The notes below the pieces were generated by a model that was not told where the DNA came from, ran no database searches, and saw nothing but the letters and a program-made list of their open reading frames with translations. A DNA stretch of 64,000 nt, taken from NCBI GenBank assembly GCA_964036195.1, contig OZ038456.1:8556001-8620000 (forward strand). Reading direction: 5' to 3'. The translations under genes and the position numbers were made by a program. Each line of letters opens with the position of its first letter. The first letter of the stretch is position 1. Below are positions 4,096 through 63,837 of this stretch, piece after piece. This DNA is from Sphaerolaimus hirsutus. Lineage: Eukaryota > Nematoda > Chromadorea > Monhysterida > Sphaerolaimidae.

Positions 4096-5462
4096 ACTTC
4101 ACACAGAGTTCATAACTGTTGCTGATCTCAAGTGCCATCTATAAGTTATGATTGAAATGTTTATTTTCTTCAATTGCTAGCAATTTTTGAGGTTTCTTGA
4201 GGACCAGGCTTTCCGTGATGTAGAAAATTTTGGTTGCGTTAATAATCTTTCATTTCTATCAACTCACAAAATGAAGCCTTTATATTTCTCATGATGATTT
4301 CAGAATGTTCACCTCACGCACTAACTGCTGTCAAAACTTAAAAGTTTATTATGCAATGCAAAAAAATTTATTCATAACATGCATTTGTAAACAGAAAAAA
4401 GTTTATATTTATTCACACCAGCAATATGTTGAAGTGAGAACACTTTCACAATTCACACAATCATATATGATTACACTTTCATACGTACATAATTACTGTC
4501 ATGGCACTGTAAAAAGTGTAGGAGAATCTTGCATCACAATAAAATGCTTATCATATCCCTATGCATGCATAGTTCAAACTCAGGCATTGGTCCTCCTGGG
4601 GCAGGCGCAGTAGCTGCCATCCTCGCCCGGGGGTCCAGGGGGGCCGCGCTGGCCAGGGAACCCTTGGCTGCCGTCCTGCCCTGCTTCTCCCTGCTCCCCC
4701 GGCCCACCCAAATTGCCAGGGAAGCCAGGGTTGCCCAGGTTGCCAGCTTGTCCTGGCTGCCCTGCCTGCCCCCTTTCACCCGGAGTCCCGTCGGGGCCGG
4801 CCTCGCCCTTTCCACCCCTGGTGCCATCACGGCCAGGAGTTCCCTGTGGTTTGGGGGGAGTGAGCTCGTTAACTGGCCATAATATGGTCAAATGTTGTGG
4901 ACTGTGTACTGTTTAGGTTGAAAAATGGCTTGAGACCACCAATTTGAGTCATTCATGACAGGATACCTCTATTGACACAAAACAGAGGCTGCAAGCAAAA
5001 CTACAAAATACCTCAAGGCTGCAATCCCTCATGTTTTATATTCATAAAACCCACAAACTACCAACCTTCTCTCCACCCTCCCCAGGGGGGCCAGTTACAC
5101 CGGGTGTCCCAGGTTGTCCAGGATATCCCTTCCTGCCGGGGTTGCCAGGATTTCCATCATTGCCAGGCTGGCCACCGGTGCCGGCCTCCCCGGGGGTTCC
5201 CACATTGCCGGCTGGGCCACTGGGGCCACGGGGGCACTGAATGCAGCCCAGATCAGGCATCTCCATGGGGGGAAGGCGACCCCCGCTTCACCCGGGGGAC
5301 CTCTTTCACCTGGGGCACCCGGCTCTCCACTGTCTCCAGCTGCTCCGGGGAGACCGGCTGCTCCGGGTGGGCACCGGTTCTGCTCGTCGCACGCTGTGGG
5401 GTGGGGATTGAGATTACTGTTGAAATGGATGATGGTGAGGGTCTTGAGGAATGCTAATTGTT

Positions 5463-6175
5463 TGGTATACTCGGCGGACCGCAAAGTATGCACCCAAAAT
5501 TATTTATGTCTTGGTCGATTATCCGCAAACTGGATACTTACCGTATTTCCTCGAAATACCCCCCCCCCTCGAAATACCCCCCCCCTCGAAATACCCCCCC
5601 TCAAAATGGACACTATGAACTTATTAACCCCCCCCCTCGAAATACCCCCCCCCAAATTTAGTGTATAGAGATCGTAAATGACAAAGGCTGCGGTCTGTCA
5701 TCCGGGCAATGCAAAACACACGTTAAAAACGATGACTCTGTTATGTGAGAACAGTGTTTGTACGTCTACACACTTATAAATGTCTTTAGAGTCTTATAAA
5801 TGGCGATTTTTGTTGCATTTTTCGACGTCTGCGTACGTTTCAGACGACATTTTAGTACTGGGATTTCAAAAAATTTCTGGCGAAATAATAGACCCCCCCC
5901 TCGAAATACCCCCCCCCCCCTCGTTTAACCCCCCCTCAAAATTCTCACTCTGAAAAAATAAACCCCCCGGGGGTATTTCGAGGAAATACGGTATGTATGC
6001 ACTTTCACAGAAAAAAAATTTTAAAAAAGAAAAATGCGGAGTCGCGTACAAACGAGGAATGTTTTTTCCCGTCACGTTTTTTTCTCTTTCATGGAATTAT
6101 TTTGACTGTATTAATGATGACGTCATGATGTAGTGTTTCCTTCAGAAAAATGATAGCGTACGGTCCGTTGAGTAT
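5463..6175 (+). mobile_element. MITE with TACTCGGCGGACCGC ends, split by a nested element
   Basis: It starts TATACTCGGCGGACCGCAAAG and ends GTACGGTCCGTTGAGTATA. The related intact copy is 15878-16143. It sits in the first large intron of collagen copy A at the site also occupied in fragment D (TATACCAA, upstream of AGCATTC), and it contains the element 5541-5991. Confidence 0.75.
5541..5991. mobile_element. CCGTATTTCC element, C-rich array, TA target duplication
   Basis: The ends are CCGTATTTCCTCGAAATACC and GGTATTTCGAGGAAATACGG, with TA on both sides (5539-5540 and 5992-5993). The homologous MITE at 15878-16143 provides the empty site: its complement reads GGATACTTATGTATGCAC where this copy reads GGATACTTA, element, TATGTATGCAC. 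The interior alternates C runs with CTCGAAATA. Confidence 0.85.
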
Positions 6176-10690: not shown

Positions 10691-10890
10691 TATCCAAATA
10701 AAATTAAAAACCCTCCAATTTTTGAATTTTTCTAGAAAACCTCCAGATTCTATAGTGTTTTGTCTTGTGGTGGAATAATTTTTCTAACTCAGCAAAAAAT
10801 TTGAATTCAAAAACATTTTCAATCTTTCTTTGCCATCATGAATCTCAACCTGCTAAACCAAGTCTGCAACAACCCCCATCAACACCCAAG

Positions 10891-12407
10891 ATGTCCAAAG
10901 GGTCCCCAACTCCAACCAACTACCCGGCAGACATCCAACCCACCTCCACAATGGGTAGCAGCCACGAACTGACCCGACTGGCGGCGTGCGTGTGCCTCGT
11001 GTCCAGCGTGGTCGCCCTCTCCGCCATGCTCACCTTCGTGCCCGTGCTGCACAACAAGGCCGCCGCCATCCGCGCAGAGTTGAGTGGGGATATGCAACAG
11101 TTTGAAAGTGATGCGCAGGTTCTGTGGGAGGACATGGTCGTGGTCAAGGCGAGGGAGGGCAGGCAGATGGGGCTGCAGAGGCACAGGAGGCAGGCGCAGC
11201 CACAGTGCAGTCGGTTTTGTTGGGGGTATGGAAATTGAACTAGAAATTAGAAGATTTTAAGCAAGAAAACTTGATTTAAAATGATAATTAAATTTAAATG
11301 TAACTAGAAATCGGAATAAATTTTAAGCAAGAAAACTGAAAAATGGCACTGACTTTGTGGATGAGGATCATTATTTGGGGGCATTCATAGACCTTCTAAG
11401 ATGTCACATAAAGTACAAAACTGCCCAATGTAACATGCCCAAACTCATGTAAAGTCTCAAATTTTATTTTATTTTCATACCAATCATTTAGCATTCTCCA
11501 AGACACTTTATAGGAGTTCCACCTGGTCGCCAGATTAAATGCCAAGCTTAACCATCATCCATTTCAACAGCAATCTCAATCCCCACCCCACAGCCTGCGA
11601 TGAGCAGAACCGGTGCCCACCCGGAGCAGCCGGTCTCCCCGGAGCAGCTGGAGACAGTGGAGAGCCGGGTGCCCCAGGTGAAAGAGGTCCCCCGGGTGAA
11701 GCGGGGGTCGCCTTCCCCCCATGGAGATGCCTGATCTGGGCTGCATTCAGTGCCCCCGTGGCCCCAGTGGCCCAGCCGGCAATGTGGGAACCCCCGGGGA
11801 GGCCGGCACCGGTGGCCAGCCTGGCAATGATGGAAATCCTGGCAACCCCGGCAGGAAGGGATATCCTGGACAACCTGGGACACCCGGTGTAACTGGCCCC
11901 CCTGGGGAGGGTGGAGAGAAGGTTGGTAGTTTGTGGGTTTTATGAATATAAAACATGAGGGATTGCAGCCTTGAGGTATTTTGTAGTTTTGCTTGCAGCC
12001 TCTGTTTTGTGTCAATAGAGGTATCCTGTCATGAATGACTCAAATTGGTGGTCTCAAGCCATTTTTCAACCTAAACAGTACACAGTCCACAACATTTGAC
12101 CATATTATGGCCAGTTAACGAGCTCACTCCCCCCAAACCACAGGGAACTCCTGGCCGTGATGGCACCAGGGGTGGAAAGGGCGAGGCCGGCCCCGACGGG
12201 ACTCCGGGTGAAAGGGGGCAGGCAGGGCAGCCAGGACAAGCTGGCAACCTGGGCAACCCTGGCTTCCCTGGCAATTTGGGTGGGCCGGGGGAGCAGGGAG
12301 AAGCAGGGCAGGACGGCAGCCAAGGGTTCCCTGGCCAGCGCGGCCCCCCTGGACCCCCGGGCGAGGATGGCAGCTACTGCGCCTGCCCCAGGAGGACCAA
12401 TGCCTGA
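10891..12407 (+). pseudogene. Cuticle collagen copy B, frameshifted in a C tract
   Basis: Same architecture as copy A, in mirror image. Coding exons are 10891-11218, 11594-11921 and 12144-12407 (TGA). The first donor is T|GTTGGG and the next acceptor CACAG|CCTGC gives Ser-Cys-Asp. AAG|GTTGGT to CAG|GGAACT joins the two Gly-X-Y exons. The exons total 920 bases, one short of a multiple of three, because the C run at 11716-11721 has six C. Unshifted, the protein would have an anchor of about 24 hydrophobic residues, an RHRR site, two Gly-X-Y blocks and a C-terminal YCACPRR. As written, translation leaves frame after VAFPP and stops at about 11892. Its 5' leader is in frame from MSKGSP, unlike copy C. 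Confidence 0.8.
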
Positions 12408-12614
12408 GTTTGAACTATGCATGCATAGGGATATGATAAGCATTTTATTGTGATGCAAGATTCTCCTACACTTTTTACAGTGCCATGACAGTAATTATGT
12501 ACGTATGAAAGTGTAATCATATATGATTGTGTGAATTGTGAAAGTGTTCTCACTTCATCATATTGCTGGTGTGAATAGATAAACTTTTTTGTTTACGAAT
12601 GAATGTGACAAATA

Positions 12615-16143: not shown

Positions 16144-16187
16144 AATCATTTAGCATTCTCCAAGACCCTTTTAGGAGTTCCACCTGG

Positions 16188-16378
16188 TGCCAATCCCAAG
16201 CCCTGTAAAGTGTAAAGTAAAGTGTCAAATGTAAAGTCAAATGCAAAGTAAAGTGTCAATTGTCATGCAAAGTTCAGTAATAAAATCTTTTCTTTTTTGT
16301 TTAAATTGACACTTGACTTTGCATTTGACTTTACATTTGACACTTTACTTTACACTTTGCAGGGCTTGGGACTGCCCC
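16188..16378. mobile_element. CWG-target element with proven CTG duplication
   Basis: Left end GTGCCAATCCCAAGCCC, right end GGGCTTGGGACTGCCCC, flanked by CTG at 16185-16187 and 16379-16381. Collagen copy B has the empty site TTCCACCTGGTCGCCAG (about 11517-11533). Here the same text reads TTCCACCTG, element, CTGGTCGCCAG. The 3-bp duplication is therefore seen directly. Confidence 0.9.
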
Positions 16379-27087: not shown

Positions 27088-28559
27088 ATGGGCAGCAGCC
27101 ACGAAGTGACCCGACTGGCGGCGTGCGTGTGCCTCGTGTCCAGCGTGGTCGCCCTCTCCGCCATGCTCACCTTCGTGCCCGTGCTGCACAACAAGGCCGC
27201 CGCCATCCGCGCAGAGTTGAGTGGTGATATGCAACAGTTTGAAAGTGATGCGCAGGTTCTCTGGGAGGATATGGTCGTGGTGAAGGCGAGGGAGGGCAGG
27301 CAGATGGGGCTGAACAGGCACAGGAGGCAGGCACAGCCCCAGTGCAGTCGGTTTTGTGGGAGGGGAGGGTTGGTGGAGCTGCAGAAATTGAAAGAAATTT
27401 CATACTACATTTTTGAAACCAAGAATACTGAACAAGAATTTGAAATGTATTATACTAATTCAGTGTGTCATTCACACCAATTTATGTTGCCTTCAGAATC
27501 ATTCAATTACATGTGGATTATTATCAGGTGGCACTGCCAGACAAAATGCCCTGTGTTAAAGAAAGTGCAAAAACTGATGAAATCTGCTCAAACACCTGTA
27601 AAGTGTAAAATCTTCTTTTATTATTCTACCAAACAATTAGCATTCATGGACTAAGACCCTTCATGGGAGAGCCACCCATTTGCCATGTTACATGCCAAGC
27701 CTCACCATCAGCCAAGTCAACAGTAATCTCAATCCCCACCCCACAGCGTGCGACGAGCAGAACCGGTGCCCACCCGGAGCAGCCGGTCTCCCCGGAGCAG
27801 CTGGAGACAGTGGAGAGCCGGGTGCCCCAGGTGAAAGAGGTCCCCCGGGTGAAGCGGGGGTCGCCTTCCCCCCCATGGAGATGCCTGATCTGGGCTGCAT
27901 TCAGTGCCCCCGTGGCCCCAGTGGCCCAGCCGGCAATGTGGGAACCCCCGGGGAGGCCGGCACCGGTGGCCAGCCAGCCAATGATGGCAATCCTGGCAAC
28001 CCTGGCAGGAAGGGATATCCTGGACAACCTGGGACACCCGGTGTAAATGGCCCCCCTGGGGAGGGTGGAGAGAAGGTTGGTAGTTTGTAGGTTTTTTGAA
28101 TATAAAACATGAGGGATTGCGGCCTTTAGCTATCTTTCAGTTCAGAATGTAGTAGATTTTATGTCAATAACCTTTCCCATCATGATTTACCCAAGTAAGT
28201 AGTCTCAGTGTTAGTAATTGTTACAATCTATTGACAAATGCTCCAATATTTGCACCTATTGCAAATAACCTCACTGCCCCAACCCCAAACCACAGGGAAC
28301 ACCTGGCCGTGATGGCACCAGGGGTGGAAAGGGCGAGGCCGGCCCCGACGGGACTCCGGGTGAAAGGGGGCAGGCAGGGCAGCCAGGACAAGCTGGCAAC
28401 CTGGGCAACCCTGGCTTCCCTGGCAATTTGGGTGGGCCGGGGGAGCAGGGAGAAGCAGGGCAGGACGGCAGCCAAGGGTTCCCTGGCCAGCGCGGCCCCC
28501 CTGGACCCCCGGGCGAGGATGGCAGCTACTGCGCCTGCCCCAGGAGGACCAATGCCTAA
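27088..28559 (+). CDS. Cuticle collagen copy C (intact)
   Basis: Secreted collagen of the nematode cuticle. Exons 27088-27355, 27747-28075 and 28296-28559 (TAA) join to 861 bases, 286 residues. Residues 8-32 form a hydrophobic anchor after [10 protein letters not shown]. Residues 77-80 are RHRR, a subtilisin-type processing site. [15 protein letters not shown] starts the first Gly-X-Y block, which is interrupted by [17 protein letters not shown]. The second block is in the last exon, ending [10 protein letters not shown]. The C run before ATGGAGATG has seven C, so the frame is open here, unlike copies A, B and D. The upstream Met used in A and B (here 27029) is out of frame because one base is missing in the leader, so the second Met at 27088 was chosen. 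A TATA box and 5' exon lie at 26181-26251. Confidence 0.9.
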
Positions 28560-28945
28560 GCTTGAACTATGCTTGTATAGGGGCATAATGAGCATTTGAG
28601 TTGTGATGGGTGATTCTTTTACACTCTTACAGTAAATGCCATGCCAGTAATTATGTATGAAGCTGTGATCAAAGTTGATAGTGTGAATTGTAAGAGGCTT
28701 CTTATTTCATCATATTATGGGTGCAAAAAAAATTGTTTAAAAATGAACCTTATGAAAAAATGTTTTGCATTAGTTAATTAACTTTAAGTTCTGACAGCAG
28801 TTTACTTGAGATATTTATACATTCTGAAATCAACATGAAACAAATATGAAGTATTCCCCACACATCATCTCAATTGCGTGTTGCTATTCTTGCGAAACAT
28901 TATTAGCGAAATTGTGAAACATTCATGCGGCGCGGGCAAATCATT

Positions 28946-29408: not shown

Positions 29409-41356
<11,948 letters not shown>

Positions 41357-42336: not shown

Positions 42337-42685
42337 GGGCACTCCCAGACCCTGTCAAATGTCATTCAAAGTGTCAAAAGTCATGGAAAATGCCCTGCGA
42401 AATGGCAACCGAGTCGTTATTTTGCAGGGCATTTTCCATGACTTCTGATATTTTGCATGATATTTGACATTTTACAGGGTCTGTGACAGACACCTGGGGG
42501 CAGTCCCAAGCCCTGTAAAGTGTAAAGTGTCAAATGTAAAGTCAAATGCGAAGTGTCAATCAAAACAAAAAAGAAAAGATTTTATTACTGAAATTTGCAT
42601 GACGATTGACAGTTTACTTTACATTTGACACTTTACTTTGCATTTGACACTTTACTTTACACTCTACAGGGCTTGGGATTGCCAC
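42337..42685. mobile_element. Two adjacent CWG-target elements sharing a CTG
   Basis: First element 42337-42493 (GGGCACTCCCAGACCC to GGGTCTGTGACAGACAC), second 42497-42685 (GGGGCAGTCCCAAGCCC to GGGCTTGGGATTGCCAC). CTG occurs at 42334-42336, 42494-42496 and 42686-42688, so the second element appears to have used the duplicated CTG of the first as its target. Confidence 0.8.
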
Positions 42686-47300: not shown

Positions 47301-50300
47301 CGTTTGAACCCTATGTGTGGGCCCATTTTTGAATGACTGACACCGTGAGACATTAGTCGTTTCACACGTAATTTGCAAAATTCTAAATTGACAGGACATT
47401 TTAGGTAGGTACAATTTGAAATTGACAGGGCTTTTTACGTACAATTTTAAATTAACATGGCATTTTATTTCACTTTTAGCGTTGCGTACGTTGATTTCAA
47501 AAAGTGCAGCATCATCAATAACTGGGTATTCGCTGGAATGTTTGCATTGCATCTACTTTTCACGACACAGCTTTTTCTACGGCTTAATAATCATAGACTC
47601 CTGTATACTAATATTAATTAGTACGTAGATGGTATCAACACAGCTCTCACGTGATTCCGACATTGTTGTCATGTACGTTCTCTTTACACTCAATCTGGGG
47701 GGTATTTCGAGGGGGGGGGGGGTGATTGTTTCATAGTGGTCTCGAGAGGGGGGGTATTTCGAGGAAATACGGTAAGTGTCAAACTCTCTGGAGTCAACTG
47801 GGTAAAAATTCGAAAACTCCATTCAAAAAAATTTAAAATTGTTTGGAAAAAATTTGGACTTCGAAAAATAATCTCAAAATTCAACACGTCAGTGTTTACC
47901 TTGTTTATCCATCGTGCACCTGGTAGGGTGTAAAAATTTTTTTTAATGGAACACGGAAATGATAATGTTTTTGTACCTGCCGTTAAATGCAGGGTACAGG
48001 GTAAAGGGAAAACGGTGAAATATAATGCCGGAAAATTCCGATAATTGAAAAACTAAAAAAATCGGCAAAAAAAAAATTAGAGAATTTGCCCGAAAATGGA
48101 AAATGAAAAATGAGCCGGAAAAATGGATATGGAATAAAAATTTAGAAGACGGCAATCGGAAACAGCAACGGGAAACAAAAATTTGCATTGGAAAACGGAA
48201 ACAGAAACTTGACACCCTCCCTGCAACCCCCCCCCCCCAAACCAACGGGCATCTCAATATCGGGCACATTTGGCTCGACCGGTCCAAAGTCACCCTGCTC
48301 ACACTTCTCAACCTGCTCGACATGGTCCTGATAGTGCTCGCCGATCTCCAACGCCTGGTGCCACTCCCAGACCCTTGAAAACGCTCTGTAAAATGTCAAA
48401 TGTCACGCAAAGTGTCAAAAATCATGGAAAATGCCCTGCAAAATGGCAAACTCACGTTTGCCATTTTGCAGGGCATTTTAGATGACTTTTGACCCTTTGC
48501 GTGAAATTTGACATTTTACAGGACATTTTACAGGGACCGGGATTGGCGCCTGGTCGCTGTCCCAGGTGTACTGGTCGTGCACGTAGGCGCATAGAGAGTC
48601 CCGGTAGTCTTTGCAGTGCGTGTATGCCTCAGACTGGGAAGGGTTGGGGGGGGGGGGGTTACAGTGAATTGGAAGGGAGATTGACTGATACGCGATATAA
48701 AGGTGTTTGAATATCCCACGCACACAAGTTGACATTGCCATCGGATGTCAACTTTGTCAACTGGTTTCCGTTGTTCACACTAATCAAATGAAGAATGTGT
48801 GCAATTTGTTTGTAAAAATGAGGATTAGAGCATGCGATTTCTGTAAACCCATTTTTTTGGTAATTTATCATTGTGAATGTTTACGAATACAACGTTATCA
48901 CAGCATTAAATTTTTCGTTGTTTTTCGAATGAAAATCACATACGTTACATATCGTTGACAGCCTTCCCACATGAACCACGCGTGCAAGGTGAAATATCAC
49001 TGAAGTATACTCCAAACTACACACCAACCCCCCCCCCAAAAAAAAAAAAGCAACAAAACCCCCCAAAAAACGCACGAAGCACTGGTACTCGCCGGTGGCC
49101 ATGACGTTCTGCACAGCCTCTTTAACGGCCTGGCCCGCCGTGCCCGTGAACGTGCCCGGGTCCAGGATCGCGTGCAGTTCCTGGCAACGTGCCAAGCTTT
49201 TTGCGTGGTCGTGGTTTGGTGTTGTGGATTGTGTGTGACCAGAGGTGCTAATCCCAGACCCTGTAAAATGTCAAATGTCATGCAAAGTGTCAAAAGTCAT
49301 GGAACTTGTCCTGCAAAATTGCAACCGAGTGGCCAGTTTGCAGGGCATTTTCCATGACTTTTCACACATTGCATGACATTTGACATTTTACAGGGTCTGA
49401 GAGTGCCCCCAGTAGTGATGGAAGTAGGAAGTGGAAAGAATGGCGGCAAGCGCCAATAATAGTGTCATTCCTGGCGCCATTCCATCGCTAGCTGAATGAC
49501 CAGGGGCCTGTCACTCAGTCTGTAAAATTTTGTGTAAGCGTTTAAGGTCATGTAAAAGACCCTGTAACGTGAGTTTGACACTTTCCATGACATTTACATG
49601 ACTGTTGACACTTTGCAGGTCATGTTACACGACTTTTGGCACGTTGCATGATATTGAACTTTTTACATGACCTTTGATAAGCACTTAGCATGACATTTTA
49701 CATTTTACATGACTTCTAACACCTAGCATGACATTTTACATTTTACATTACTTTGACACTTTCCATGACATTTTACATGACCTTTGACACTTTACATGAC
49801 ATTTTACAGGCTCTAGAAGCGCTCCCTAACCTAAATTAGAAAAATTCCCCCAAAACTGCACCAACATCCTCTAAATCATCCCTGGGCGGCTCCTCGTGCT
49901 GGTCCATGAACATTTTGCACTGTCTAAAGCGATTCACCAAAAGCGTGCGCGCCTGATCAAAATCGTTCGAACTTTGCAGAGTTACCGGCGCCATTGCCGT
50001 CAACTTATATGTCAACTCCTCTGGGGTGTCTTCGACCGTGCATTCTGGAAGGGGAGCATTTTGTATTTTATGAATGTAGTTGTAAAAGGTTACCGTATAT
50101 CCTTGAATAAGTCCCCCCTTGAATAACTCCCCCTACTTGAAAAACTTCCCCGTTGGTATAATAAGGTGAGGAAAAAATAACTCCTGGTCTTGAATAAAAC
50201 ACCCTTGAGTCACTCCTCCTGCACAACCTCTGATGAATAACTCCCCTGGGGTCTAATTCGAGGATATACAGTATTTCAAACTGTAAAAAGCGACCGCTGT

Positions 50301-55900: not shown

Positions 55901-58900
55901 CCGAACACTTATGAAACAACGTGATGATGACGAAGTGATGACGTCATGAAGACGACGTGATGACGAGAGATGATGATGATTACGACGAAAGTGATCACGT
56001 CATGATGGAGTGTTTCCTCCGGAAAAATGTACGGCGTAATGTCATCCGAGTATACCGTATTTCTTCTTATAGAAGGGCGTCTCAAGGTACACGAAGTGCT
56101 GGAATTGTGCCAAATGCGTAGAAAATTAAAAATATCAACGGACGCTGTAATTCAGTGGCTTTGGTTCATTGATTTTGTGATATTTTAACATCAAATGTTG
56201 AATGAACTCAATGTATCGTCATGCTTTGAACTGTCTGTGATGTAACACTTTTAAATAGGTAGCTTGGCAGAAGTTGAAAAAGATTGGCTGAAAAGTTGAC
56301 GAAAAAATAGAAGGTCGCCCTTCTCTTAGAAAGACTGCGGTATTGATGTACCTAATCATTGTTCTAAAAATGGGTGATTTTGACAGAATAAAATAAAATA
56401 CCATCTCATTAAATCTCTTAAACAGAAGATATTATCAAAGCTCTCTAGTACAAAACGCAGATAAACACATGAAAATAGATGATTTATTTCCTATGAGAAT
56501 GAAAATTTGAGAATGAGATGTTCTTTTTTCTATGGTTGCCTTCTACAGGGCATTTTACATGCCTTTTGAAACTTGCATGTCAATTTACAGGGATTTTACA
56601 TGCCTTTTGAAACTTGCATGTCATCTGACATTCACAAGTAGGGTGTCAACTTTCCATTTTCCATTTTCCGTTTCCGCTTTCCACAGGCAAATTTTTTTTC
56701 AGTTTCAGTTTCCGTTTTCCGGCTGCTAAATCTTTTTTCCGTTTCCGTTTTTCCAGCTCATTTTCCGTTTTCCGGCTAAAATTTCAGTTTTTCCGCCTTT
56801 TTTCCATTTTCTGGCTCAATTGTCTGTTTTTCAAACTTTTTTCCATTTTCTGACTCAATTCTCTGTTTTCTGTTTTGGCCAAAGTGGTAAACATGCATGC
56901 AGGTTCTCAATTATGTGAATTGTTTCTATTTCTAGCAAGATTTCTGCAAATTTTTCGATTTCTGGATAAATTTCTGCAATTTTTTTTTCCGTTTCCGGCA
57001 AAATTTCAGCAAATTTTTCCCATTTCCAGCATAATTTCAGCAAATTTTTCCATTTCCGTTTCCGTTTTCCGGCCTTTCATTCTTCCGTTTTCCGTTTTCC
57101 GACAGGTACAAATTTTTTTTCCGTTTCCGTTTTCCGGCAAGTGTAAATTTTTTTTCTGTTTCCGTTTCCGTTTTCCGCCAAAAAGTTTTTGTTGACACCC
57201 TATTCACAAGGCACCTGTAAAACGCACAAAGTATCCAGCGCCGCTGACATAGTGCTTCTCCACGGCAGTGGATTCGTTGGACACCCGGTAGACAATGAAA
57301 ACATCCCGCAAGAAAACCTCAGTGAGCGTGATTGCCAGGTGGCACTCCCAGACCCTGTAAAAAGCCCTGTAAAATGTCAAATGTCATGCAGAGTGTCAAA
57401 AGTCACGGAAAATGTCCTGCAAAATGGCAACCGCGTCGTCATTTTGCAGGGCATTTTCCATGACTTTTGACATTTTACAGGGCACTTTACAGGGTCTGGG
57501 ACTGGCACCAGGGCAAAAACCACAACGTAGGCGGTTGCGCAGCGGGCGCCCATCCATCGCTGCGAGTGGCAGTGGGAAATGAGAAGTAGAAACTTTTTTT
57601 GAAAAAAGTGGTTCAGGTTTTATTTTCTAAAATGACTTTTCGGATCTTCCCACAAAATTCCCAAAGTTACAAGAACGGAATGACTTCTGGGGGTTCGGAA
57701 AAATTCTGGCGACTAAAAAAATACCCCCTTGAAATACCCCCTCCCTCGAATTACCTCATCAAAACTTTCACTCTGAAAACATAAACCCCCTGTGGGTATA
57801 TACCTATACGGTATATACCTAAAAATACAAATACAGTGAATTTCCACCACTTTTAGCAAGTTTTCCCCTTTTTCTACCTTCTACATGTTGAAAAACCTAT
57901 ACATCAGACCCCTACAACCCCCTCCAAAAATCGTTGATCTATCCCTCCGGAGGGTCAATTAGCTATGCACCCAACCCCTGGAAGGTCACAATCCATTTCA
58001 AACCCCCTCCCCCCCTAACCCCCAGCTCGCACCTTGTAAAAGTTGAGCGGGCTCACAATGGCGCTGACTCTATTCGCGCTGAGCACCAACAAGCTGATCG
58101 GCTGGGCGAACATGGCCACGAACTGGCAGTGGGTCATCGCGGTCGGCAGCCAGCCCTGGGGGCAGTCACAAGCCCTGTAAAGCGTAAAGTAAAGTGTCAA
58201 ATGTAAAGTCGAATGCAAAGTAAAGTGTCAATTGTCATGCAAAATTCAGTAATAAGATCTTTTCTTTTTTGATTTCATTGACACTTTACTTTGCATTTGA
58301 CTTCGCATTTGACACTTTACTTTTAACTTTATAGGGCTTGGGACTGCCCCCTGGGTCCATTGGCTCAGCTGTACTGCTGCTGACAGCAGCCAGTGTGGCC
58401 ACCGTTGCCACGAGTTGTTGCTGCCGCTCAGACGGTTGCTCACTGCCTGTGGGGGGGGGGGCTCGAATGAAGGTACCGTATTCGTATCCTTCAATAAGAC
58501 CCTATTGGATAAGACCTGCTTGAATAACTCCCCATGTCAGGTATATTACCCAAAAATTCGAAGTAACCCACCCCATGCCAGGCACCAAATCAGAAAGTAT
58601 ATCAGAATTCAAATGTACCCAATGCATTATGGGCATCGTTATCTACTACAGTGTACATTGCATACATGATATATGCACATCATTCCAGACGGGGGTATTT
58701 CGAGGCGGGTATTAATTCATAGTGACCACCGTTTTGAGGGGGGGGGGGCGTATTTCGAGGGGGCTGGTGGGTTGGGTGGAAAAAGGGTCACTTTACGTAA
58801 GATTACGGTCATTGTCGCATGAACGCGCTGACCAATCACATTTTTGTTTGCACAAGCTATCTGTGCGGTTATTTGCGGATTTATCTGCAATGGATCATGA

Positions 58901-62701: not shown

Positions 62702-63032
62702 ATGGCGTCCAAACAAAAAGTGGCTGTAATCACTGGCAGTTCAATGGGAATTGGTCTGGCAGTAGTCCAGGTGCCACTCCCAGACCTTGTAAAAAGCCCT
62801 GTAAAATGTCAAATGTCATGCAAAGTTGCCATTTTGCAGGGAATTTTCCATGAGTTTTGACACTTTGCATGACATTTGACAGTTTACAGGGCTTTTACTG
62901 GGTCTATGAGTCCCCCAGAAATTCAAAGAAAATGGCTTTTTCACTATAGGGCTAGACATATTGGATGACAATGAAAAACTAGTTGATGAGTTCCACAAAA
63001 TCGACTTATCACGGGCTGATCATGTGGAGGAG
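62702..63032 (+). CDS. Short-chain dehydrogenase/reductase, 5' exons only
   Basis: NAD(P)-dependent oxidoreductase of the SDR Rossmann fold; substrate unknown. Exon 1 is 62702-62770 (23 codons from ATG) and exon 2 is 62919-63032, ending GAG|GTATGG at phase 0. Residues 11-18 TGSSMGIG are the TGxxxGxG cofactor motif. Asp36 in IGLDIL at the end of the second strand favours NAD(H). KIDLSR is the third-strand Asp that contacts adenine. Catalytic Ser/Tyr/Lys exons are not seen; after 63090 the sequence is repeat, so the rest probably lies beyond the window. The intron is, to the base, a CWG-target element plus its duplicated CAG. Confidence 0.88.
62771..62915 (+). mobile_element. CWG-target element forming the dehydrogenase intron
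   Basis: GTAGTCCAG, then GTGCCACTCCCAGACCTT...GGTCTATGAGTCCCC, then CAG, then AAATTCAAA. Intron 62771-62918 is 148 bases, starts GT and ends CAG, with the same CAG on the exon side (62768-62770). Inside: TGTCAAATGTCATGCAAAG and its complement. Confidence 0.92.
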
Positions 63033-63089: not shown

Positions 63090-63837
63090 GATGTAAACAC
63101 CTTCCCGGCACCCTATTTTTGATCGTACTTGTGACACCCTATCTCCAGTTCTAGGGAGCGCCAGAAGCTGAAACCTGGGGGAGGTATTGGTGCAACCCCC
63201 CTCTACTTCTCATGAATTTGGGGGGTCGCGGCGACCCCTCTCAGTGTGGGTCGCCCTGAGTGCAAAATTTTTTTTTGGCTTTTTTGGTGTCCCACAGTAG
63301 GTCCGGCACCCGCTGATTTCTAGCTGTGGGAGCGGTATAAATCTAAAATTTTGGGGATGTGTTACCAACACCACTCCCCTACTATACACTATTCAATCAT
63401 GTGAGATTAACGTGAAAAATTTCTCAAAAATTCGCTTATTCTCCAAATAAAACACCACTCCCCAATAGGTGGATGACAAAAAAATCACTTTTTGGAACTT
63501 TTTTATTAGACACTTGAAGAGATGGTTTACGATACTTTAAAGGGAAGGGTTTGATGTTTAAAGTTATGTAAAGAACCATACCTCTAAAATGCATGCATTG
63601 TCAAATTTACCTCGGGGGAATTTCAAAGTGTAAATTTTGCAAATTTTTGTTCCTGCAATGATGTCATTATGATGTCATAAAATTCGCCCTAAGTAAATTT
63701 TGCAATGCAGGCATTTTAGAGGACGGTTCTTAGCATAACTTTAAACATCAAACCCTTCCCTTTAAAGTATTGTAAACCATCTCTTCAAGTGTCTAATATA
63801 AAAGTTCCAAAAAGTGAATTTTTTGTCATCCATCTGT
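63090..63837. repeat. Second copy of the 19329-20180 repeat
   Basis: CCGGCACCCTATTTTTGAT, GGGGGGTCGCGGCGACCCCT and the hairpin with AAGAGATGGTTTACGATAC. It sits in the next intron of the dehydrogenase gene. Confidence 0.75.

Follow-up and report, generated by a model that had tools for sequence, protein, structure and literature searches.

Introners, similar sequences that occur in large numbers as introns at unrelated positions, are the closest described parallel to the element analysed here. Those reported by Gozashti et al. (2022; PMC9860276) include, in the available part of that article, intron-creating repeats that resemble DNA transposons in having terminal inverted repeats (TIRs) and target duplications, a likeness shared by the MITE studied here. 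In Chrysochromulina, as that part describes, the 5' splice site comes with the element and the 3' site is co-opted, with a 4-bp duplication, and in Aureococcus codons are added (12 bp). The survey, in the same part, lists introners in two animal groups only, copepods being named, and its main text contains none of the terms nematod-, metazoa- and Harbinger (PMC9860276). By comparison with those cases, ours comes from a host with a nematode-type cuticle collagen and shows a CWG duplication.

A duplication of this type is given as the hallmark of NuwaI, TIR-bearing DNA transposons found mainly in animals, in the available text of PMC4482050, and our MITE resembles them in both its 5'-CWG-3' target duplication and its TIRs. 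However, NuwaI is defined there by transposase and duplication together, whereas our MITE is known from non-autonomous copies alone. NuwaI/PHIS elements are typically associated with a related DDE transposase whose TIRs match, as a rule together with a Myb/SANT protein. The same portion of the text makes no mention of intron creation by NuwaI (PMC4482050). The intron-rich copepod Eurytemora affinis has many recent lineage-specific introns with GA or GG donors after an obligate AG (PMC5714493). A GG donor of this kind would be needed by one of the arrangements open to a copy of our family (58159-58350, see below). No transposon source was named for the copepod introns (PMC5714493), whereas in the present case the element behind the introns is known and GT donors predominate among the supported cases.

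The DNA examined is a stretch of 64,000 nucleotides (C9:8556001-8620000; hereafter, the window), in which an inverted-repeat element occupies the first intron of a dehydrogenase (SDR) gene. This feature is very probably an introner, that is, a non-autonomous cut-and-paste MITE turned into a spliceosomal intron upon insertion into an exon. Introns of another animal, Fritillaria, have reportedly been attributed to MITE-like elements and are mostly non-canonical, whereas those described here are mainly GT-AG; a 2025 paper is said to describe horizontally transferred introners. Animal introners are rare. A 2022 analysis of intron gain in nematodes discusses, in its available part, the reasons for the failure to find source sequences (PMC9169325). 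In the literature searched, outside of which lie preprints and most subscription journals, and as far as its texts were available, no introners have been reported in a nematode. As far as searched, then, introners are a known kind of element, and the likely host group and a CWG-type MITE with a proto-splice-like target are new.

Intron 1 of the SDR gene

Exon 1 of the SDR gene (62702-62770, plus strand) runs from the ATG to GTCCAG and comprises 69 nt, i.e., codons 1-23 ending in GTC CAG, as delimited by the sequence, Pfam and solved structures. Its last three bases (62768-62770) are the left CAG target-site duplication and would serve as the exonic side of a CAG|GT donor. They are followed on the same strand by a MITE copy (62771-62915), internally shortened from a full length of ~190 bp, the terminal GT of which is the putative 5' splice site, and by the right CAG duplicate (62916-62918), the putative 3' splice site. 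Exon 2 (62919-63032, plus strand) ends in VEE|gtatgg at the donor GAG|GTATGG of the second intron, the position of which is common to three paralogs. The first intron reads GTGCCACTCC...GTCCCCCAG and measures 148 bp. The original prediction had assigned all of 62771-62918 to the element; this is refined here, the final CAG being a target duplicate and the element proper ending at 62915.

In other respects, what had been predicted for this intron agrees with our analysis. The gap between codons 23 and 24 is filled by an inverted-repeat element flanked by CAG, with 35-nt arms that are 97% complementary, beyond chance expectation (RNA fold z = -10.5; none of 200 shuffles was as good). The proposed donor CAG|GT and the acceptor derived from the duplicated CAG are both present, the CWG duplication being found family-wide, and would be the sites used in splicing. 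Taking the intron out exactly brings codons 23 and 24 together, no base being gained or lost (TGSSMGIGLAVVQ|KFKENGFFTIGLD), and retention would shift the frame (148 mod 3 = 1) and lead to an in-frame stop (L016:2699-2857). Since the GT comes from the element and the terminal CAG from the duplicated target, removing the element together with one target copy recovers the uninterrupted sequence.

Homology extends across the junction. The Pfam domain adh_short spans it with E 1.7e-5 and 24.8 bits, slightly below the 26.6 cut-off. The complete protein, encoded by an open frame of 245 codons over seven exons, matches 378 distinct solved sequences, and the junction is gapless in both of the solved SDR structures that were inspected as alignments.

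The MITE family and its CWG target

Members of this family are short, occur in high copy number, and have terminal inverted repeats and target duplications of constant length, as expected for MITEs. A DNA search of the 348-Mb genome gave at least 92 matches (40 of 2036 first-look candidates were scored), and the genome contains 1733 exact matches to the 16-base GTGCC end (868 forward and 865 reverse), against 0 for its reversed control. There are two end types, GTGCCACTCCCAGACC and GGGGCACTCCCAGACC, the ends having the form G[T/G]G..ACTCCCAGACC. Copies are 116-379 bp long (median 184; 39 copies with matching CAG flanks) and built as a long inverted repeat with an arm identity of 72-95% (42 copies). 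Overall, the element is a general MITE numbering far more than a thousand copies; introns would be the outcome where its exon insertions are spliceable.

The GTGCC end is preceded by CAG 754 times and by CTG 631 times, together 80% of the 1733 occurrences, base composition predicting ~1.2% for CAG. The wider target C-CAG-G (CCWGG) is seen in 25/39 and 19/39 cases on the flanks of the copies with matching CAG ends, most of which had been gathered via the CAG pattern itself. When the 754 CAG|GTGCC loci are taken in genome order, CAG stands at both ends in 25 of the first 30 (22 identified as distinct by script, L048 by hand, plus L039 and L042, whose flanks repeat those of their neighbours); the exceptions are L026, L036, L040, L045 and L047. 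CAG|GTGCC is significantly more frequent than CTG|GTGCC (754 vs 631, p = 0.001). The excess of 123, which is 16% of 754, is near the proportion of homology-supported loci among the first 30 (five, see below), a proximity that may be due to chance, and insertion bias could equally yield the excess.

As the MITE has its CWG duplication in common with NuwaI/PHIS, it is likely to be affiliated with NuwaI, a group within the PHIS superfamily of PIF/Harbinger relatives. Its own transposase was not found among 30 loci (L051-L080) fetched out of 163 genome matches to PF13359; these 30 all belong to another family (a second PF13359 group lay outside this set). This DDE_Tnp_4 family was considered as the autonomous partner and rejected: it starts with GGCCCCACGCACAC and has TAA/TAT-like flanks, unlike the MITE. 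Its members are Harbinger-type, 2.5 kb long and mostly 98-99% identical over ~2500 bp, and the family has apparently been active recently. A search of Rfam gave no match within the window.

A possible route from insertion to intron

A simple series of steps could account for these features. The transposase would duplicate the CWG at the centre of a CCWGG target, as the flanks suggest. Given a target that reads CAG in the coding sense and an element placed with its GTGCC end first, the insertion would have the structure CAG|GTGCC...GCCCC|CAG, with the GT donor provided by the element and the duplicated CAG acting both as exon side of the donor and as acceptor. Splicing out the element with one target copy would then give the pre-insertion mRNA, in keeping with the restoration of the frame shown above. 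Inexact arrangements are perhaps tolerated: copies with the GG end first might be spliced as GG-AG or from a GT lying six bases inside, which adds two codons, and in some CTG-oriented ones an AG located nine bases ahead of the right border could be used, which adds three. Once a copy is in place, its hairpin core would decay and its ends persist, as a comparison of the 148-bp copy with a 191-bp version (see below) suggests.

A CWG-targeting MITE would be almost pre-made for this role, with CCWGG resembling a proto-splice site, the duplication as acceptor and the terminus as donor. Because alternative GT and AG dinucleotides lie six and nine bases inside the ends, near misses stay in frame. The genome would be well suited for directly testing the rate at which insertions become introns, selection on orientation and the improvement of splice signals.

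Putative exact introns in other genes

Five of the first 30 CAG|GTGCC loci are exact coding junctions backed by homology. In a carnitine acyltransferase (L046; C1:11818528-11818922) and a gastric-type lipase (L048; C1:12059359-12059701), Pfam matches cross the junction with E 2.9e-16 and 1.3e-12, respectively, and the PDB alignments are ungapped there. L025 interrupts a gene that we take to be SMYD-like, an assignment for which Pfam and PDB give no support; eight in-genome paralogs run through its junction without interruption (seven with E < 0.01, one with 0.62). Two cases are weaker, namely a PAN domain (L035), where the Pfam match crosses at E 7e-4, slightly under the cut-off, and a PI-PLC-Y end joined to a C2 start (L049; E 0.0052 and 0.044, both below cut-offs), for which the PDB search gave no match. 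A separate search yielded L007, in a presumably GPCR-like gene with nothing relevant in Pfam, the junction of which is crossed uninterrupted by seven paralogs (four with E < 0.01, three with 0.26-0.28). The lipase junction is crossed in one open frame by two paralogs and marginally by a third; the single paralog match of the acyltransferase is weak (E 0.04) and was not used as an argument for gain. The CAG is on the coding strand in all homology-supported cases, so that an acceptor CAG is always there.

Similar sequences are thus found as apparent introns at unrelated positions, in the SDR, acyltransferase and lipase genes, in the paralog-backed GPCR-like, SMYD-like and chemoreceptor-like genes and, more weakly, in the PAN and PI-PLC/C2 genes. 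The ends of the element coincide with the predicted splice sites, and its removal restores the frame. Moreover, uninterrupted paralogs in the same genome (for SDR introns 1 and 3 and the lipase, GPCR-like and SMYD-like genes) indicate recent gain, which we infer by parsimony. Several genes, including SDR, appear to have gained introns via this MITE. The more general prediction that the family makes introns by insertion thereby finds support on three sides: a transposon family that duplicates its target, exact introns in unrelated genes, and gains relative to in-genome paralogs.

Controls

Out of 52 sense-strand junction ORFs, 30 were picked by eye for a Pfam search, and six of these joined proteins have a match across the junction at E <= 0.01 (SDR introns 1, 3 and 6, PAN, carnitine acyltransferase and lipase); the sense protein of L031 has a crossing match at chance level (E 0.051). 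Antisense ORFs, 10/45 of which were sent to Pfam, gave no junction-crossing match, and none crosses at E <= 0.01 among the 10/35 ORFs sent for copies lacking GT on the CAG side, where L086 shows a chance-level crossing match (E 0.078). The SDR match of L011 stops at the junction, its real donor lying 22 bp upstream, and the chemoreceptor matches of the 58159-58350 copy (E 0.015-0.056) start 1-5 residues before the junction. Fisher's test of 6/30 against 0/20 gives p = 0.07, so the counts are suggestive and the weight rests on the strong individual cases.

An HSP90 gene (30972-40924 of the window, plus strand) served as another control. None of the 10 introns examined in it starts with the element end, and a C-rich stretch before the acceptor is also found in these ordinary introns. 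A codon-usage score computed for 41 copies, with a small training set that makes it too weak for single copies and useful as a hint only, ranged from +2.0 to -4.0 for the supported introns in the right frame, and an alternative frame beat the right one for L048, L049 and L007.

Copies with other ends or orientations

The window contains further copies of the family. A full-length one with the CAG duplication (58159-58350, minus strand) has its GG end first, CAG|GGGGCAGTCC...CCCC|CAG. It splits a chemoreceptor-like exon on the minus strand, with coding parts 58351-58446 and 58033-58155: 96 coding-like bases follow an acceptor-like CACAG and 123 precede the donor AAG|GTGCGA. Pfam detects an Srg chemoreceptor in the downstream part only of the 58033-58446 exon (E 0.006, below cut-off). 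An uninterrupted paralog (C9:8158861) is 50% identical to the joined protein over residues 6-62 (E 4.4e-12) and crosses the junction at residue 23 in one open frame, the register there being approximate as its match is three codons shorter. This match shows that the copy interrupts a real exon, with a border devoid of GT. It is a candidate introner, either exact with GG-AG or using GT-AG six bases inside its left end, which adds two codons. To restrict survival in exons to GT-first copies is consequently too narrow a view, and the C9:8158861 paralog led us to weigh our main reading slightly down and a non-canonical one up.

Another full-length copy with the CAG duplication (48358-48549, minus strand; CAG|GCGCC...GGCAC|CAG) has coding-like flanks and the top coding score among the 41 copies scored, and its joined protein has no Pfam match; it is a candidate GC-AG introner. 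Three more full-length copies carry CAG target duplications: 57339-57508 (plus strand), to which no putative coding context was assigned, 42497-42685 (minus strand), with no coding context recognised, and 16187-16378 (minus strand), with the GG end on the CAG side.

The opposite orientation was examined in 10 loci (L081-L090, of which L086, L087, L089 and L090 lie on C1). Both ends are readable in seven, and five of these have CTG on both sides. In the CTG sense, the flanks of the CTG-oriented L089 and L090 score positive for coding; L086, judged coding by eye, scores -1.4. In three of the seven readable copies (L086, L087 and L090) an AG lies nine bases inside the right border, such that a GT-AG intron starting at the element's GT would add three in-frame codons. 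In L089, no sequence-preserving GT-AG pair exists at or near both ends. Pfam and related searches gave no convincing homolog for L086, L089 or L090, and the genome search with L090 matched only itself, with no paralog.

Other explanations of the exact junctions

The 58159-58350 copy and L089 raise the question of how such insertions might be removed. One answer is that copies in coding sequence are excised precisely, leaving one CWG, even without terminal GT-AG, with the hairpin or the duplicated target as guide. We consider it unlikely; if true, it would imply either a tolerant non-canonical splicing or a somatic DNA excision similar to that of ciliate IESs, the GT-AG copies being just the visible part. 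A wider version, that removal in general does not proceed by canonical splicing and instead involves hairpin-guided RNA removal, non-canonical sites (GG/TG borders) or precise somatic DNA excision, seems to us rather improbable. The RNA of the element folds into a nearly perfect hairpin (-140 kcal/mol, z = -25, for the 191-bp version), the exon split by the GG-first copy is uninterrupted in a paralog, coding-like sequence is broken up by L089 and L090, and GG and GA donors are known in a copepod (PMC5714493). However, GT-AG alternatives are available for the 58159-58350 copy (two added codons) and for L086, L087 and L090 (three), the terminal CAG is kept in every homology-supported case, and the HSP90 and SDR introns examined have GT donors.

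It is very improbable, in turn, that the MITE entered or replaced an older intron at codon 23/24 without any intron gain. Family copies do lie within longer, ordinary introns, as in HSP90, where some introns harbour copies that do not make up the whole intron (e.g., near 36284-36792), and in an SDR paralog (C2), whose copy sits 22 bp inside an intron. Nevertheless, SDR intron 1 consists entirely of the element plus one CAG, with no remnant of an older intron, and the same exactness is seen in unrelated genes, with paralogs devoid of introns at these positions.

Other SDR introns, paralogs and a second gene copy

Element-type introns account for three of the six examined in the SDR gene, namely introns 1, 3 and 6. 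Intron 3 (L016:6432-6681) lies after residue 85 in phase 1, and Pfam adh_short crosses its junction with E 1.3e-9; intron 6 (L016:9492-9687) lies after residue 210, also in phase 1, with a crossing Pfam match of E 0.0047, under the cut-off. Introns 1 and 3 are absent from all three SDR paralogs (C2, C15 and C3) and the intron 2 position is present in all three, a pattern that argues by parsimony among paralogs for a gain of introns 1 and 3. Intron 6 was dropped as evidence for gain, as an intron of the C2 paralog lies, as read by eye, only some five codons from it. The copy at an apparent coding junction of the C2 paralog was rejected, its intron having the canonical donor CCAG|GTTGGC. Intron 2 contains very large inverted repeats, with 111- and 130-nt arms that are 95% complementary (window 63467-63835; L016:3322-5662). 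A family-like sequence, CAG|GTTAGGGG..., also occurs in the seventh intron (L016:9792-10030), where no clear acceptor was found.

A second, near-identical copy of the gene is located 14.7 kb downstream (L010, L016/L017; from C9:8633489 onward), next to an assembly gap (run of N). Identity to the window gene amounts to 66/68 bases in exon 1 and 113/113 aligned bases in exon 2, and intron 2 starts with 400 identical bases; the copy stems from a recent duplication or else represents the other, uncollapsed haplotype. Its intron 1 measures 191 bp, the window version being 43 bp shorter through a loss in the hairpin core; as there are two gene copies, long (191 bp) and short (148 bp) forms of the intron exist with their ends kept, whether by duplication or as haplotypes. 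Small indels put exon 1 of the downstream copy out of frame, which might suggest that the 62771 copy breaks a pseudogene and that frame continuity is accidental or historical, but this is the least credible reading of all, given that the seven-exon frame of the window gene is open and matches solved SDRs and that those indels may be assembly errors, since exon 2 and the start of intron 2 are identical.

The host

The original prediction placed these introns in a nematode. The window encodes a cuticle collagen N-terminal domain (PF01484, Col_cuticle_N; E 4e-8), the sole phylum marker examined, with which a nematode host is compatible, although nematomorphs may share this domain. A weak match to a nematode-type chemoreceptor (Srg) in the window is also compatible with it. 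Very similar collagen-like reading frames are found in repeated, partly inverted segments of the window at 4529-5668, 10765-12458 and 27088-28595.
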